64,000 nucleotides of DNA from NCBI GenBank assembly GCA_903891095.1, contig CAITDI010000030.1, forward strand, positions 1 to 64,000, read 5' to 3'. Shown here in pieces: positions 9,327 through 44,934 of this stretch. Source of the DNA: an uncultured bacterium (GTDB lineage Bacteria > Planctomycetota > Phycisphaerae > Phycisphaerales > SM1A02). The position numbers and the translations under genes are program-made. Numbering within the stretch: position 1 is the first letter of the stretch; every line of letters starts with the position of its first letter. The notes below the pieces were generated by a model. That model did not search any database and was not told the origin of the DNA. It saw only the letters and a program-made list of their open reading frames with translations.

Positions 9327-9919
9327 CGAGCGCGACGAATGGAACAGGCTCGAACGACGGCGGTCTGAGCGACGAAGTGCTCCGCGTGCGGCGCACGAGC
9401 CCGTACTCGACGCGCGAGAAGATCGGGCGATTGCTCTGGGGTTTCGTGCAGTCGACGCTGTTCCGCGCGACGTTCCACAACTGGTACGGCGTGCGGCGCG
9501 CGATGCTCCGCGCGTTCGGCGCAAAGATGCACGCGACGGCCAACGTTCGGCGCACGGTGACGATCGAGTGCCCGTGGAACCTCTCGCTCGGCGCGGAGAG
9601 TTCGATCGGCGATCGCGCGATCGTGTATTGCCTCGGGCCCGTCACGATCGGGCGCAATGTGACGGTGTCGCAGGGCGCGCACATCTGCGCGGGCAGCCAC
9701 GATTCGCGCAAGGCTGCGATGCCGCTGCTGCGCCCGCCCGTGGTGATCGGAAACGAAGTGTGGATCGCGACCGACGCATTCGTCGGCCCGAAGGTGCGCG
9801 TCGGCGACGGCGCGATTCTCGGCGCGCGGGGAGTTGCGCTCGAGGATCTCGAGCCGTGGACGATCTATCTTGGCAATCCCGCGGTAAAGGTGCGCGCGCG
9901 CGAGTTTGAAGGGCGCTGA
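9323..9919 (+). CDS. WcaF-like hexapeptide acyltransferase
   Basis: Left-handed beta-helix acyltransferase of 198 residues, likely O-acetylating a sugar of the polysaccharide made by this cluster. After a short N-terminal helix region ([17 protein letters not shown]) it has hexapeptide repeats ([33 protein letters not shown] in two parts), the catalytic-type histidine in [10 protein letters not shown], and the closing [10 protein letters not shown], resembling the WcaF/colanic acid acetyltransferases. The start overlaps the fcl stop by four bases, indicating coupled translation. Confidence 0.82.
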
Positions 9920-9950
9920 GTCGGGCGCTGAGGCGCCGAAGGAAATCACG

Positions 9951-11465
9951 ATGGCATTCCGGATCTACAACACGCTCACGAAGTCGCTCGAGGAATTCCA
10001 CCCGCTGCACGCAGCCGGCGAGGTGACCTTCTACTCGTGCGGCCCGACGGTGTACGACGACGCGCACATCGGGAACTTCCGATCGTTCCTCAACGCCGAC
10101 ATGCTGCGCCGCGCGCTCGAGCTGCACGGCATGCGCGTCAAGCATGTGATGAACATCACCGACGTCGGCCACATGACCGAGGACGACGCGGCCGACGGCG
10201 GCGGCGAGGACAAGATGGCGCTCGCTGGCCGTCGCATCGCCGAAGCAAAGAAGTCAGGCAAGCTGCCCGCGGGGTCGGAGATCGATCCCGCGAATCCGTA
10301 CGCGGTCGCCGAGTTCTACGCGCAGCGGTTTCTCGAGGATGGACGCCATCTCGGGCTCAAGGTCGCGATCGAGGAGCAGAAGCACCCCGAGCTCATGCCG
10401 CGGCCGACGCGCTGCGTGCCGCAGATGATCGCGCTGGTCGAGCAGCTCGTCGCGCGCGGACACGCGTATGTGGCGAAGGACGGCGTCGTGTACTTCAGCG
10501 TGCAGAGCTTTCCCGCGTACGGCAAGCTGTCGGGCAACACGCTCGACAACCTGCGCGAGGGCGAGGGCGGCCGCATCAGCGCGGAGAACCAGGCGGTCAA
10601 GCGGCATCCCGCGGACTTCATGCTGTGGAAGCCCGATCCGACGCATCTCATGCGCTGGCCGAGCCCGTGGGGCGAGGGCTATCCGGGCTGGCACCTCGAG
10701 TGCAGCGCGATGGCCAAGATGCTCCTCGGCGAGGAGATCGATCTGCATTCGGGCGGCGAGGACAACATCTTTCCGCACCACGAGTGCGAGGTCGCGCAGA
10801 GCTGCTGCGCGAGCGGGCGGCCGCACTTTGCGCGCGTGTGGTTCCACACGCGGCACCTGCAGGTCGAGGGCGAGAAGATGTCGAAGTCGAAGGGCAATTT
10901 CTTTACCGCGCGCGATCTGTTTGCGAAGGGCGTGACGCCGGCTGCGCTGCGGTTGGAGTTGGTTCGCACGCACTACCGCACGAACTCGAACTTCACGATG
11001 CAGGGGCTGCGCGATTGCCAGCGGATGATCGATCGGTGGACGGCTGCGCGCGCGGCGCTCGCCGAGCGTTTGGCGAGTCCTTCGACGAACGCGGCTCAAG
11101 ACGGCCCGATGCAGCGCGCGCTCGTCGAGTTCAAGGATGCGGTCGGCGACGATCTCAATCTCGCGCGCGCGATGGCGGCGCTGAATACGGCGATCGGCGA
11201 GGCGCCCGCGGGTGACGCGAAGGCGGAGCTTGCGGCGCTGGATGCGATGAACTCGGTGCTTGGTGTGTTCGAGCGGAACGAGGCGCTCGCGTCGGCTGCG
11301 AACGATGATTTGGCGGCAAAGGTCGAGGTCCTGCTCGAGCGCCGCAAGAATGCGCGCGCCGCGAAGGACTGGGCCGAGAGCGATCGCGTGCGCGATGAGC
11401 TCAACGCGCTCGGCGTGCGCATCAAGGATGGACCGCAGGGCACGACTTGGGAGCGCGCGGTCTAA
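9951..11465 (+). CDS. cysS: Cysteine--tRNA ligase
   Basis: Class I aminoacyl-tRNA synthetase that charges tRNA-Cys. It has 504 residues. Signature regions are FYSCGPTVYDDAHIGNFRSF (zinc-ligand Cys and HIGN), WHLECSAMA (second zinc Cys), DIxSGGxDxxFPHHE-type text (DLHSGGEDNIFPHHECE) and KMSKSKGNF. The C-terminal DALR-like helical domain is shorter than in some homologues. ATG 9951 is preceded by AAGGAAATC; in-frame sequence upstream (from 9906) overlaps the preceding gene and is not conserved-looking. It lies 31 bases after the acetyltransferase. Confidence 0.96.
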   Translation: MAFRIYNTLTKSLEEFHPLHAAGEVTFYSCGPTVYDDAHIGNFRSFLNADMLRRALELHGMRVKHVMNITDVGHMTEDDAADGGGEDKMALAGRRIAEAKKSGKLPAGSEIDPANPYAVAEFYAQRFLEDGRHLGLKVAIEEQKHPELMPRPTRCVPQMIALVEQLVARGHAYVAKDGVVYFSVQSFPAYGKLSGNTLDNLREGEGGRISAENQAVKRHPADFMLWKPDPTHLMRWPSPWGEGYPGWHLECSAMAKMLLGEEIDLHSGGEDNIFPHHECEVAQSCCASGRPHFARVWFHTRHLQVEGEKMSKSKGNFFTARDLFAKGVTPAALRLELVRTHYRTNSNFTMQGLRDCQRMIDRWTAARAALAERLASPSTNAAQDGPMQRALVEFKDAVGDDLNLARAMAALNTAIGEAPAGDAKAELAALDAMNSVLGVFERNEALASAANDDLAAKVEVLLERRKNARAAKDWAESDRVRDELNALGVRIKDGPQGTTWERAV

Positions 11466-11970
11466 CGGGCACGTCTCGCTGAAAATGCTTCATCGGCGCG
11501 TCGAAATGCTTGCATGATCGGCGAGTGTGTCGTATAGTGTTTGAGTCAGCATCAAGAGCGGCGGAGTCATCCGCACGGCAACCGAGTCAGATCCGACCAC
11601 GGTGCCAAATCGATGCGGCTCGAAAAAGGCTGGAAATCAGCCTAAAACGAGCACAATTCAGGATCGAGCCAACGCTCCATCCCGCTCTTGATGTCGATGC
11701 GGTTCGAACGAACCAGTCGACGCATGTCGCATCGACGCGTTCGTTCCGCGACAACCTGAAGTGCATCCCGAGCGACGCGCGCGCCGTGCAACACACGGCG
11801 TGCGCTCCGGCAACCGGCCGCGAGGCACGGTGCCAGAACGATGCGGGCGGCGTGTGGGAAACACGCCGTCAACCTCGCGAATGCGAGCGCTGTGTGCTGC
11901 CTGATTCGGGCGGCGCGCGCGTCGCTGGGATGCGCGTCCAGCAGGCCGAAGTCGGCCGAGGAGTGCGCGC
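11466..11970 (+). other. 505-bp non-coding leader before the MoxR/VWA operon
   Basis: No convincing gene. The frames that are open here lack the strong G/C third-position bias of real genes in this window. A promoter-like pair lies at 11510-11538, leaving a leader of about 430 bases before the first operon gene. No long hairpin with a U-tract was found by eye, and I did not recognise a known riboswitch. Confidence 0.5.
11510..11538 (+). promoter_or_regulatory. Sigma70-like promoter candidate for the 11971-16484 operon
   Basis: TTGCAT at 11510-11515 and TATAGT at 11533-11538 are separated by exactly 17 bases, close to the TTGACA/TATAAT consensus. It sits just after cysS and in front of the long leader. 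AT-rich hexamers with ideal spacing are rare in this GC-rich DNA, which gives the site weight, but it is a by-eye call. Confidence 0.45.
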
Positions 11971-13023
11971 GTGTCTTTCCATCTCCCACCAACGGATTCC
12001 ATCGAGAATTCCAACGGGGTCTCCATCGCGGACTCCATCGCCCTCGACTCATCGGCGGCGTTCCAGCTGCTCGTCTGTGCGTCGTCGCAGGATGTGCGCG
12101 AGGCCGCGGCGGAAGCGCTTTGGCCCCGGCAGTACGCGGATCAGAATGAGCTCGAATGCAGCCACGAGCGGTTCGCCGATCTGCCGTTTGACACGCGGGT
12201 GTTGGCGTTGATCTGCGCTTCGGTGATCGCAAGGCAGCCATCGAGCACGCACAAGCTCCGCGCGGTGCCGCTCTATGAGTTCCTCGCGCCGCCGCGTTCC
12301 AGTGTGCATTCCGCGGAGAGGCCTGTCTTCCGCATCCAGTCGGGAAGGGCGGCGCGCACGCTCACGATGCCCGGCGGCTCCCCGCAGACGCTCGCGCGCA
12401 ACGCGGCGTTCGTGCTGCCCGGCTGTGCGGATGACACGGTGATTCAGCGCTGTTCGTGGGGCAGAGTCGAGTGTGAACCCTACAGCGATACGTACCAATG
12501 GTGCCTCGACGACTCTTCCGTGTATCTCAACCTCAGCAACCGCGCGCGCACGCGCGCGCGGTGGGGATCACAAGCTCCGGTCATCATCTCCGCGTCCGGC
12601 GAACAGCTCCACGAGCTTTCGTCTCCGCTGCAACGGATCTTCCAGGGCGAGCGGATCTCGTTGGGCACTTCGATGCTCATGAGGCTGGCGGCCGGCGGTT
12701 TGTCTGGCGCGGTGATCGCGTTCGACAACCAGCTGCCCATCGTGCGCGGGCGCCGTCCCCGCGATGCGACGCTGTCGATCGAGATCGGCCCGGACCTCGA
12801 GTCGCCGTTGGTTGGCAGGTGCTTCAAGGGCGACCTGTCGCCGCGCTACGACTTGAATTGCATCGGCCTCGGCGGCCGGGTGCGCGTGTCACTGCGGGAG
12901 GGCCGCACCATCGCGGAGCTCGACCTCATCGCCCGAAAGGTAGGCGTCTGGCATGGAACGCGTATCCGCGGGTCGTTTCAGTACCACCCGCAGTGCGCGC
13001 AGGTCGTCGCGGAGGTGGCGTGA
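11971..13023 (+). CDS. Unrecognised protein, first gene of MoxR/VWA operon
   Basis: 350 residues from a GTG start; function not recognised. There is no signal peptide or transmembrane segment. The first ~30 residues are Ser/Ile/Asp-rich (PPTDSIENSNGVSIADSIAL) and the DNA under them repeats TCCATCG. A mixed alpha/beta body follows with five cysteines between about 145 and 185 and a glycine-rich C-terminal third (GLGGRVRVSLREGR). The stop is one base from the next start, so it is cotranscribed with the second unknown, the AAA+ ATPase and the VWA protein. It may be an adaptor, substrate or effector of that module; this is inference from context. The start is uncertain, since no in-frame ATG is near. 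Confidence 0.6.
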   Translation: MSFHLPPTDSIENSNGVSIADSIALDSSAAFQLLVCASSQDVREAAAEALWPRQYADQNELECSHERFADLPFDTRVLALICASVIARQPSSTHKLRAVPLYEFLAPPRSSVHSAERPVFRIQSGRAARTLTMPGGSPQTLARNAAFVLPGCADDTVIQRCSWGRVECEPYSDTYQWCLDDSSVYLNLSNRARTRARWGSQAPVIISASGEQLHELSSPLQRIFQGERISLGTSMLMRLAAGGLSGAVIAFDNQLPIVRGRRPRDATLSIEIGPDLESPLVGRCFKGDLSPRYDLNCIGLGGRVRVSLREGRTIAELDLIARKVGVWHGTRIRGSFQYHPQCAQVVAEVA

Positions 13024-42080: not shown

Positions 42081-43496
42081 ATGGTGGGCGTGACGCACAA
42101 CGAACTCGCGCGCGACACGATCGTGGCCACGGCATCGCCGCCGGGCCGCGGGGTGCGCGCGCTTGTTCGTCTTTCGGGGCCAGGTGCGCGCGCGGCCGCC
42201 GAGCGCGTGCTCGGCGCGGTGCCTGCGCGCCGCGGCGTGACGCGCGCGCGTGCGCGGATCGCGACCGGTGACGGCGCGTGCTCGAGCGTGCCCGTGCTCG
42301 CGATGTGGATGGAGTCGGGCGCGAGCTTTACCGGTGAGGATTCGCTCGAGGTCTCGTGCGTCGGCGCGCCCGCGGTGGTCGAGTGCGTCGCGACGGCGCT
42401 GATCGACGGCTCGCGCGCGGGCGGCTTTGGCGCGCGGCTCGCGCGCGCTGGTGAGTTCGCGTTCCGCGCGCATCTCGCGGGGCGCATCTCGGTCGACGAG
42501 GCCGAGGCGATTGCCGCGCGCATCGCGGCGACGAGCGACGCGGAGATCGCGGCGTCGGACGAGATCGCGCACGGCGTGTTCGGCGCGCGCGCGGCGGAAC
42601 TGCTCGCGCGCACGGCCGAGGCGCTCGCGCTGGTCGAGGCGGGGATCGACTTCACCGATCAGGACGATGTGGTCGCGATCGCCGCCGATGAGCTCGCGCG
42701 GCGCGCGGGCGCGATCGCGGCGGCGTGCGAGTCGCTGCGCGGCGGGCAGCAGTCGGCGCGCGCGAACGCGGTGGCGCTGGTGGTGCTCGCGGGCGCGCCG
42801 AATGCGGGCAAGAGCACGCTGTTCAACGCGCTGCTCGGCCGCGCGCGCAGCGTGGCGAGCGACCTCGCGGGCACGACGCGCGACGCGATCGTCGAGCGCA
42901 TCGCGCTGGGTGCCGGGCTTGAAGTCGACCTCGCGGACCTCGCAGGTCTCGACGGCGTCGATGGCGCAGGCCCGATCGAACGCGCCATGCAGCGCCGCGC
43001 GCAGGAGATGCTCGCGGCCGCGGACATCGTGGTGCGCTGCACGCCGCCCGGCGGCGCGCGCGTGGAGCTTGCGACCGCGGCCGACCTGATCGATGTCGCG
43101 ACGATGGCGGATCTCGCGCCGGTCGCGGATGAGCTCGCTGGGCTGAGCTCTACCTCGACCTCTACCTTGAGCGTGAGCGCACGCACCGGCACCGGCATCG
43201 AGCCGCTCCGCATCGCCATCGCCGCGCGCATTCGCCGCGACCGCGCGCTGCGCCGAGCGCGACTCGCGACGATCCTCCCGCGCCACGACGCCGCGTTCGC
43301 CGCCGCCCATGCCGCGCTGACCGAGACGGCGTCGCATGCCTCCGCGTCCGCCAGCCGCGGTCGCCGCCTCGACGACGTCGAGCTGGTGGCCAGCCTTCTC
43401 CGCGCCGCACTCGACGCCCTCGGCGAAGTCGCCGGCCCGATGCACCCCGACGACGTCCTCGGCCTCGTGTTCTCCCGCTTCTGCATTGGAAAGTGA
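42081..43496 (+). CDS. mnmE: tRNA uridine-5-carboxymethylaminomethyl GTPase MnmE, divergent
   Basis: 471 residues. With MnmG it modifies U34 of tRNAs using a folate-bound one-carbon unit. Formyl-folate-binding N-domain (IVATASPPGRGVRALVRLSG), helical domain (LARAGEFAFRAHLAGRISVD), inserted G domain with P-loop GAPNAGKST (238-246), AGTTRD (G2) and DLAGL (G3), and the C-terminal CIGK with the essential cysteine. The G4 motif NKxD is not found; the best matching position reads TAAD, so guanine specificity may be relaxed. It follows yidC, as commonly seen, and its stop overlaps the thioesterase start (GTGA). Confidence 0.9.
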   Translation: MVGVTHNELARDTIVATASPPGRGVRALVRLSGPGARAAAERVLGAVPARRGVTRARARIATGDGACSSVPVLAMWMESGASFTGEDSLEVSCVGAPAVVECVATALIDGSRAGGFGARLARAGEFAFRAHLAGRISVDEAEAIAARIAATSDAEIAASDEIAHGVFGARAAELLARTAEALALVEAGIDFTDQDDVVAIAADELARRAGAIAAACESLRGGQQSARANAVALVVLAGAPNAGKSTLFNALLGRARSVASDLAGTTRDAIVERIALGAGLEVDLADLAGLDGVDGAGPIERAMQRRAQEMLAAADIVVRCTPPGGARVELATAADLIDVATMADLAPVADELAGLSSTSTSTLSVSARTGTGIEPLRIAIAARIRRDRALRRARLATILPRHDAAFAAAHAALTETASHASASASRGRRLDDVELVASLLRAALDALGEVAGPMHPDDVLGLVFSRFCIGK

Positions 43497-43945
43497 CCGC
43501 CATGACCAATCGCCCATCCCCGAGCCGCTCCGGCGCAGGATCCGACAGCCCCACGCCGCTCTCGACGCACGAGACCGAGATCCGCGTTCGCTACCCCGAG
43601 TGCGACCCGATGGGCGTCGCCCACCATGCGACCTACCCCGTCTGGTTCGAGATCGGCCGGACGGAGATGCTCCGCGCGACGGGCGGCAACTACCGCGACC
43701 TCGAGGCGGCGGGGGTGTTCCTGGCGGTCGTCCGGCTCGAGGTCCGCTACCGCCGACCCGCTCGGTACGACGATGTGCTGCGCCTTCGAACCAGCCTTCT
43801 GGTCGCTGGACCGGTCAAGATCGAGCATTCGTACGAGCTGTTTCGCGGCGATGAGCTCGTCGCCGAGGCCCGAACGACCCTGGCGTGCCTCGATCGGAGC
43901 GGGTCGGCGTGCCAAATCCCGCCAGGGCTGCAAATTGGTGCTTGA
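43493..43945 (+). CDS. YbgC-type acyl-CoA thioesterase (hotdog fold)
   Basis: 150 residues. 4-hydroxybenzoyl-CoA thioesterase-like hotdog enzyme. The signature VRYPECDPMGVAHHATYPVWFE has the catalytic Asp in CDPMG and the HH-x-x-Y segment, followed by VRLEVRYRRPARYDD. The GTG at 43493 overlaps the mnmE stop; ATG 43502 is an alternative start after a short Ser/Pro-rich lead. The substrate is probably a short acyl-CoA or acyl-ACP, which the sequence does not settle. Confidence 0.88.
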   Translation: MTAMTNRPSPSRSGAGSDSPTPLSTHETEIRVRYPECDPMGVAHHATYPVWFEIGRTEMLRATGGNYRDLEAAGVFLAVVRLEVRYRRPARYDDVLRLRTSLLVAGPVKIEHSYELFRGDELVAEARTTLACLDRSGSACQIPPGLQIGA

Positions 43946-43989: not shown

Positions 43990-44323
43990 CGCCAAACGCC
44001 CTCGACTGTCAGGAATTCGCCGAAATAGCGCTCCGCTTGCGCAGAGTCTTGGTCTGAAACTCTTTTCTCAGGTGTCAGGGTTGGCTTCCTCCCAACTCCC
44101 CCCCCTTTGTCGGCCCTGACACGTAAAGCAGGTCAAGCGAAAGCAAGACCTGTAGGGCCCACACGACCCCCTTCGTGTGGGACACAACTGACTGATGCGA
44201 TGACGTGTCGCTGAAAGTTAGTCCCTCGAGCTTGCGGCTGATTGGATTCCCGTCCTCGCCGCAGACCGAATTCCACGTTTGCATCGCCGGCGCCTCAGAT
44301 TTCTGTGGCGCCGGCGATGTTTT
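43990..44323 (+). ncRNA. Candidate structured RNA, family not recognised
   Basis: No protein gene fits here, and base composition departs from coding DNA (pyrimidine runs near 44086-44107). Several strong hairpins stand in series: 44072-44080 pairs with 44114-44122 (9 bp) enclosing GTTGG/CCAAC; CAGGTC 44129-44134 pairs with GACCTG 44147-44152 and closes on GC-GAAA-GC, a GNRA tetraloop; CCCACACGA 44158-44166 pairs with TCGTGTGGG 44173-44181; a terminator-like hairpin ends it at 44282-44323. tmRNA, RNase P, SRP RNA and 6S signatures were looked for and not found. The 5' end is a guess. Confidence 0.5.
44282..44323 (+). terminator. Terminator-like hairpin closing the structured RNA region
   Basis: CATCGCCGGCGCC at 44282-44294 pairs perfectly with GGCGCCGGCGATG at 44307-44319 (13 bp, loop of 12), followed by TTTTTG. 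It is 336 bases after the thioesterase stop, so a separate short transcript ending here is plausible. Confidence 0.78.
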
Positions 44324-44370
44324 TGCATTGCATCGAAATCGCCGCGGAGTGCATCGCTAGGATGCGCGCC

Positions 44371-44934
44371 ATGCAGATCCGTTCCCTCGCGGCGCTCTTT
44401 GTTCTCGCACTCGTTCCGGTTTCCTGCACTGCGATGTCGACGTATCCGCCGACCGCGGGGCACACCGTCTCGACGCCCAATGTCACGCCTGGACCCGAAG
44501 TCATGGCGGGCGCGATCAAGGAAGCGCACCGACTCACCGCGCCGAACTCGAAGATCATCTTCAACCTTCCGGTTGGACTCGCTGAGAACACATGGAACCG
44601 CGTCGCAGGTCTCCTGCCCGACAACGCACGCGCGATGGAGCCGGGCGATGAAGGCGTCTACTCGGTCCAGCAGCTGCGCATCGGCGGCGGCGCGGCGGAA
44701 GTCGACATCGTCTATCCCGATCACGGCGTGTATCAGCTGATGACCGTCAAGTTCAGCGGCGGCATGCTGATGGACTGGCGCGTCGAGTGGGCGTACCGCT
44801 GGATGATTCCCGCGACCAAGCCCGTCGCCAACGATCCGCTGCAGCGCGTCGCAGACGAGCAGAAGGCTGCGGATTCCAACGCCGCTGCCGCCGAAGTCGA
44901 GTCGCAGAGCGCGCCGGCTGACTCGTCGAAGTAA
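44371..44934 (+). CDS. Lipoprotein, unknown function
   Basis: 187 residues. Type II signal peptide MQIRSLAALFVLALVPVSC with lipobox VPVSC, so Cys19 would be lipidated. The mature domain (about 45-150) is alpha/beta with SKIIFNLPVGLAENTWNRVA and VDIVYPDHGVYQLMTVKFSGG; the tail is Ala/Asp/Glu-rich. ATG 44371 is chosen over several upstream in-frame starts because it begins the signal peptide. A strong terminator follows 28 bases after the stop. No family recognised. Confidence 0.68.
   Translation: MQIRSLAALFVLALVPVSCTAMSTYPPTAGHTVSTPNVTPGPEVMAGAIKEAHRLTAPNSKIIFNLPVGLAENTWNRVAGLLPDNARAMEPGDEGVYSVQQLRIGGGAAEVDIVYPDHGVYQLMTVKFSGGMLMDWRVEWAYRWMIPATKPVANDPLQRVADEQKAADSNAAAAEVESQSAPADSSK

Follow-up and report, generated by a model that had tools for sequence, protein, structure and literature searches.

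A covarying structured RNA downstream of a thioesterase gene in one planctomycete genus: a candidate small regulatory RNA

Introduction

What is encoded in the gap between a thioesterase gene and a small lipoprotein gene in a metagenome-assembled genome of a freshwater planctomycete? A sequence-only reading of the window, i.e., the whole stretch of 64,000 nucleotides analysed here, had drawn attention to the interval 43990-44323, in which several strong stems are followed by a terminator, and had proposed that it encodes a structured RNA, either new or diverged from a known one. Comparison with homologous loci indicates that a structured RNA of a previously unrecorded family resides there, and leads us to consider a trans-acting regulatory role.

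The Element and Its Predicted Fold

All the stems quoted in that reading were found, at about the positions given for them. The first 9-bp stem (44072-44080/44114-44122) belongs to hairpin S1 and extends to 14 pairs; the hairpin with the AA/AA internal loop and GC-GAAA-GC closure lies at 44129-44152, the other 9-bp stem at 44158-44166/44173-44181, and the terminator at 44281-44320, followed by TTTTT. The interval itself held up in part: it does contain a structured RNA, but its first ~46 bases fall outside the conserved element, since in the alignment of homologues conservation sets in at about 44036-44039, at the GCGCAGA motif. The GNRA tetraloop fared similarly, as the GAAA loop of S2 is present in the window and in close relatives but is not conserved, the other copies carrying UUCC-type or unrelated loops. 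The interval 43990-44323 folds with -145.2 kcal/mol compared with a mean of -106.4 in dinucleotide shuffles (z -7.9, 0/100), and the refined element 44039-44324 with -133.7 kcal/mol compared with -92 in shuffles (z -8.6, 0/200). The overall fold is predicted to be multibranched, with five hairpins and the terminator (Table 1).

Table 1. Position of the RNA, its parts and the flanking genes in the window
Feature	Position	Strand	Remarks
Upstream neighbour, 4HBT-type thioesterase	43493..43945	+	Pfam PF13279/PF03061
Structured ncRNA, conserved core	44039..44324	+	~286 nt; 11-genome alignment, covariation, fold z -8.6
5' motif GCGCAGA	44039..44045	+	Nearly invariant; alignment
S1, covarying stem with C/U-rich loop TCCTCCCAACTCCCCCCCCTT	44072..44122	+	Covariation; loop composition
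S2 hairpin	44129..44152	+	Predicted in every copy, sequence and loop differ; per-sequence folds
S3 hairpin	44158..44181	+	Variable sequence; found at this position in most copies; per-sequence folds
S4 hairpin	44196..44212	+	Five of five pairs covary
S5 hairpin, CTTGCGG...CCGCAGACCG	44226..44269	+	Sequence strongly conserved
GAWTTCCACGTTTGCA motif, 16 nt, ahead of the terminator	44268..44283	+	Nearly invariant in 11 copies
Intrinsic terminator, 14 pairs plus 3, U tract	44281..44324	+	Two covarying pairs
Downstream neighbour, small putative lipoprotein	44371..44934	+	Without Pfam family; separate from the RNA unit

The most distinctive part is the loop of S1, which in 11/11 copies spans 16-29 nt and consists of C and U with few A. 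When the 11 loops are pooled, 219 of the 245 nucleotides are pyrimidines, and the three G are located at the loop edge. In most of the aligned copies, a second run of pyrimidines, UCUCUUCUC, lies 5' of S1. With regard to S5, one copy (L011:865-1189, minus strand) carries a 31-nt insertion within this otherwise strongly conserved hairpin.

Two alternative pairings are possible for the 3' motif, with the 5' GCGCAGA or with the S4 loop. GCGCAGA may pair with UUCCACGU ahead of the terminator as a closing stem, whose strands are invariant and thus outside the reach of covariation. The S4 loop harbours an invariant CGUG complementary to CACG of the 3' linker, and a pseudoknot between the two is possible. 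Both strands being invariant, the comparative data cannot choose between these pairings. The GAWTTCCACGTTTGCA motif probably represents a functional 3' module, because it is near-constant in the 11 copies and recurs ahead of a different terminator in three genomes (G002, G006 and G011). This other terminator, CGCAGGGCGCC..., was noticed at L124:257-310 (G006:C120), L108 (G002:C56) and L122 (G011:C365), and would mark a second RNA or 3' end sharing the module. In two of these genomes, G006 and G011, the motif is located upstream of a conserved secreted-protein-like gene.

Selection for RNA Structure

Comparison of the copies makes it almost certain that selection acts on this locus at the RNA level. 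In the 11-sequence alignment, the 53 named pairs are standard in 96.7% of cells, and changes on both sides affect 16 pairs, compared with 9.2 +/- 1.7 in shuffles (0/500), or 43 double-change cells compared with 15.0 +/- 3.0 (0/500). When the register is slid by 1-3 columns, 34-50% pairing remains, with no more than five double-change cells, in a control that somewhat favours the structure, derived as it was from the same alignment. The covariation count took in S1, S4, S5 and the terminator, all of which possess covarying pairs, and left out S2 and S3; within the strongly conserved 3' half, many pairs are invariant and therefore uninformative in this respect. Every copy shows 100% pairing in the terminator. 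Compensatory changes, whose absence would have spoken against the proposal of the sequence-only reading, are thus abundant.

On the plus strand, 59 G.U pairs were counted against three A.C pairs, and this excess indicates that the RNA is read from that strand. Furthermore, the 3' ~100 nt display 85-94% identity in most blastn matches, with 52-70% for the neighbouring MnmE protein. A conserved small protein was excluded, owing to indels and to the interruption of every frame in at least some copies.

Distribution among Relatives

A blastn survey of 61 relatives revealed clear matches confined to the same genus. With a covariance model of the 3' half of the RNA, homologues were found in 11 of the 16 genomes of the genus, while no full-scoring match appeared among the remaining members of the family (181 genomes sampled from 45 genera, 44 of them beyond its own) or among 301 genomes sampled from the order. 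Weak matches outside the genus reached up to 28.9 bits and were absent from a stricter family run; those inside the genus fall mostly in coding sequence or on unrelated terminators. A scan of 84,980 species with a 3' pattern returned ten members of the genus and two matches in unrelated phyla (Atopobiaceae and Mycetocola), which were taken as chance; a match at L012 was judged spurious. The same pattern had no match in IMG/VR, leaving a viral origin unsupported. As far as searched, the RNA appears confined to one genus, and its named carriers are mostly planctomycete assemblies from lakes and ponds.

Two relatives that lack the RNA, G004 and G005, group together in a tree of MnmE plus thioesterase (support 94), so that a single event would explain the absence; support at the deep nodes is too weak to decide whether the RNA was lost or gained late.

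Genomic Context and Possible Function

In all 11 carriers, the RNA directly follows the same thioesterase gene, which is preceded by mnmE, and usually also yidC, where the contig extends far enough upstream. The lipoprotein gene lies downstream in 10 of the 11. The exception, G015, keeps the RNA and its terminator, and has a convergent deoxyhypusine-synthase-like gene in place of an adjoining lipoprotein gene (L040:540-1622, plus strand; PF01916, planctomycete). Conversely, G004 and G005 keep the thioesterase and lipoprotein genes, some 30 bp apart, with a TAGGAT/TAGCAT box right ahead of the lipoprotein ATG. This clean empty site argues that the lipoprotein gene and the RNA are separate units. 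Such natural pairs of presence and absence would also make the effect of the RNA testable.

From these sequence features, we would give an even chance to a standalone, single-copy, lineage-specific sRNA of ~290 nt, acting in trans by base pairing. The terminator is both conserved and covarying, and the C/U loop is predicted to be accessible in all copies. Such an sRNA would either have a promoter to itself or be released by cleavage at the 3' end of the mnmE-thioesterase transcript, and would end at the strong intrinsic terminator. The S1 loop and UCUCUUCUC would then act in trans on several mRNAs by pairing with their G-rich, Shine-Dalgarno-like stretches, and this pairing would repress translation or alter stability, in the manner of C-rich-loop sRNAs such as 6C. 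In the account of PMC9569102, which cites Mai et al. (2019), the 6C sRNA of Actinobacteria binds mRNAs through C-rich loops. We infer that the S1 loop, held open by a covarying stem, could likewise reach G-rich ribosome-binding sites. The invariant 3' part (S5, GAWUUCCACGUUUGCA and the terminator) might confer stability, bind a protein or offer a second site for pairing. In the window, a Shine-Dalgarno-like motif was found at 11 of 44 approximate gene starts, compared with 4-7 at control positions, i.e., about twice the background, so anti-Shine-Dalgarno targeting would be limited to a minority of genes. In a search for targets by means of the 3' motif, the near-matches elsewhere in the genomes were not at conserved genes.

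A protein would be an equally plausible partner for the C/U loop. The RNA may accordingly be protein-associated, with a structural or sequestering role in which the loop and the invariant ends (GCGCAGA with UUCCACGU) contact a protein instead of mRNAs, a proposal that we regard as possible but having a minority share of the probability. Indeed, S5 and the motifs at both ends are invariant in sequence and not merely in pairing, and the large size and multibranch closure point the same way. However, neither a protein partner nor a resemblance to a family of this sort was found, and absence from two relatives indicates that the RNA is not a housekeeping ribonucleoprotein component.

Rather unlikely, in our judgement, is that the element simply belongs to the mnmE-thioesterase operon as a structured 3' untranslated region, acting only as a terminator and stability element. 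Its start ~90 bp past the thioesterase stop in the same orientation, its constant association with that gene (11/11 genomes) and a scan for sigma-70-type promoters in which none was recognisable all fit this proposal. Its elaboration and conservation, however, go far beyond the needs of a terminator, and the same gene pair occurs without it in G004 and G005. An sRNA derived from the 3' untranslated region would fit this view as well as that of a trans-acting sRNA.

A further proposal, to which we lend somewhat less credence, holds that UUCCACGU acts as a switch, engaged either in the closure with the 5' GCGCAGA or in the pseudoknot with CGUG of S4, and thereby exposes or hides the C/U loop. 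The RNA would then represent a new large multibranched class restricted to one genus, with its 3' motif shared by at least one second RNA.

Given the distance of ~46 bp between the terminator end and the lipoprotein start in the window, a cis-regulatory leader of that gene, riboswitch or attenuator, with the terminator as expression platform was also considered, and appears very improbable. A leader is expected to precede the same gene in the same orientation, but in G015 the RNA and terminator persist facing a convergent gene. In G004 and G005, the lipoprotein gene leaves no room for the RNA and yet keeps a TAGNAT-like box ahead of its ATG. The occurrence of the RNA and the lipoprotein gene without each other thus disfavours a leader, as do the terminator being fully paired in every copy and the lack of a conserved antiterminator.

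Relation to Known RNA Families

A divergent copy of tmRNA, RNase P, SRP, 6S or another Rfam family, suggested by a size resembling that of tmRNA or RNase P, has a negligible probability, as Rfam gave no useful score at this locus of the window or at five homologous loci, and three housekeeping RNAs score above cut-off elsewhere in the same genome, G000 (tmRNA, RF00023, G000:C29:9772-10124; RNase P RNA, RF00010, G000:C46:18208-18616; SRP RNA, RF00169, G000:C13:12653-12749), where a weak 6S candidate is found as well. In the Rfam scan, the check named in the sequence-only reading, no family was matched at threshold at these six loci, and only chance matches were seen. Covariance models likewise bore out that tmRNA, RNase P, SRP and 6S RNAs are absent from the locus. 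Of the two options originally offered, the new structured RNA therefore stands, and the divergent known one is unlikely in view of the missing Rfam match, the compensatory changes and the housekeeping RNAs present elsewhere. The RNA constitutes a previously unrecorded family, absent from Rfam 15, new as a family but ordinary as a kind, and its homologues provide a ready consensus for it.

With regard to 6S RNA (RF00013), both are standalone structured RNAs of a few hundred nucleotides, but 6S forms one long hairpin with a central bubble, whereas the planctomycete RNA is multibranched and unmatched by RF00013. In G000, a sub-threshold 6S candidate of 30 bits was noticed at L025 (C38:13280-13450, minus strand); similar weak matches occur in 10 other genomes of the genus, for which reason L025 is probably its diverged 6S RNA.

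The likeness to 6C (RF01066) lies in a stem-loop with a C-rich, G-free loop and in a standalone gene. 6C is defined by a pair of hairpins, each with at least six C in its loop, whereas the sole C/U-rich loop here is that of S1 and the other conserved loops are not C-rich. Moreover, the 6C model measures 75 nt and comes from another phylum, compared with ~286 nt and a single C/U loop alongside five further structural elements in the planctomycete RNA, and it gave no match at the locus at the gathering score. A sub-threshold 6C match (37.4 bits, with 47 as the threshold) was observed at L136 (G000:C83:26284-26358, plus strand).

In the RsaE/RoxS and LhrC group of Firmicutes, a C/U-rich single-stranded stretch is directed against G-rich ribosome-binding sites. 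The planctomycete RNA resembles this group in its proposed mode of action, but has no sequence or structural homology to it. If the trans-acting reading is true, it would suggest an origin of regulation by C/U-rich loops in planctomycetes independent of that in Actinobacteria and Firmicutes.

Other Features of the Window

Two tandem SAM riboswitch matches, ~120 nt apart, are located on the plus strand at 11544-11645 and 11764-11881. They are flanked by a cysteinyl-tRNA synthetase-like ORF at 9906-11465 and an ORF without identified family at 11971-13023, with no obvious methionine or SAM gene directly 3' of them, and score 45.5 bits (SAM-I/IV) and 38.6 bits (SAM-IV), the latter just over the cut-off.
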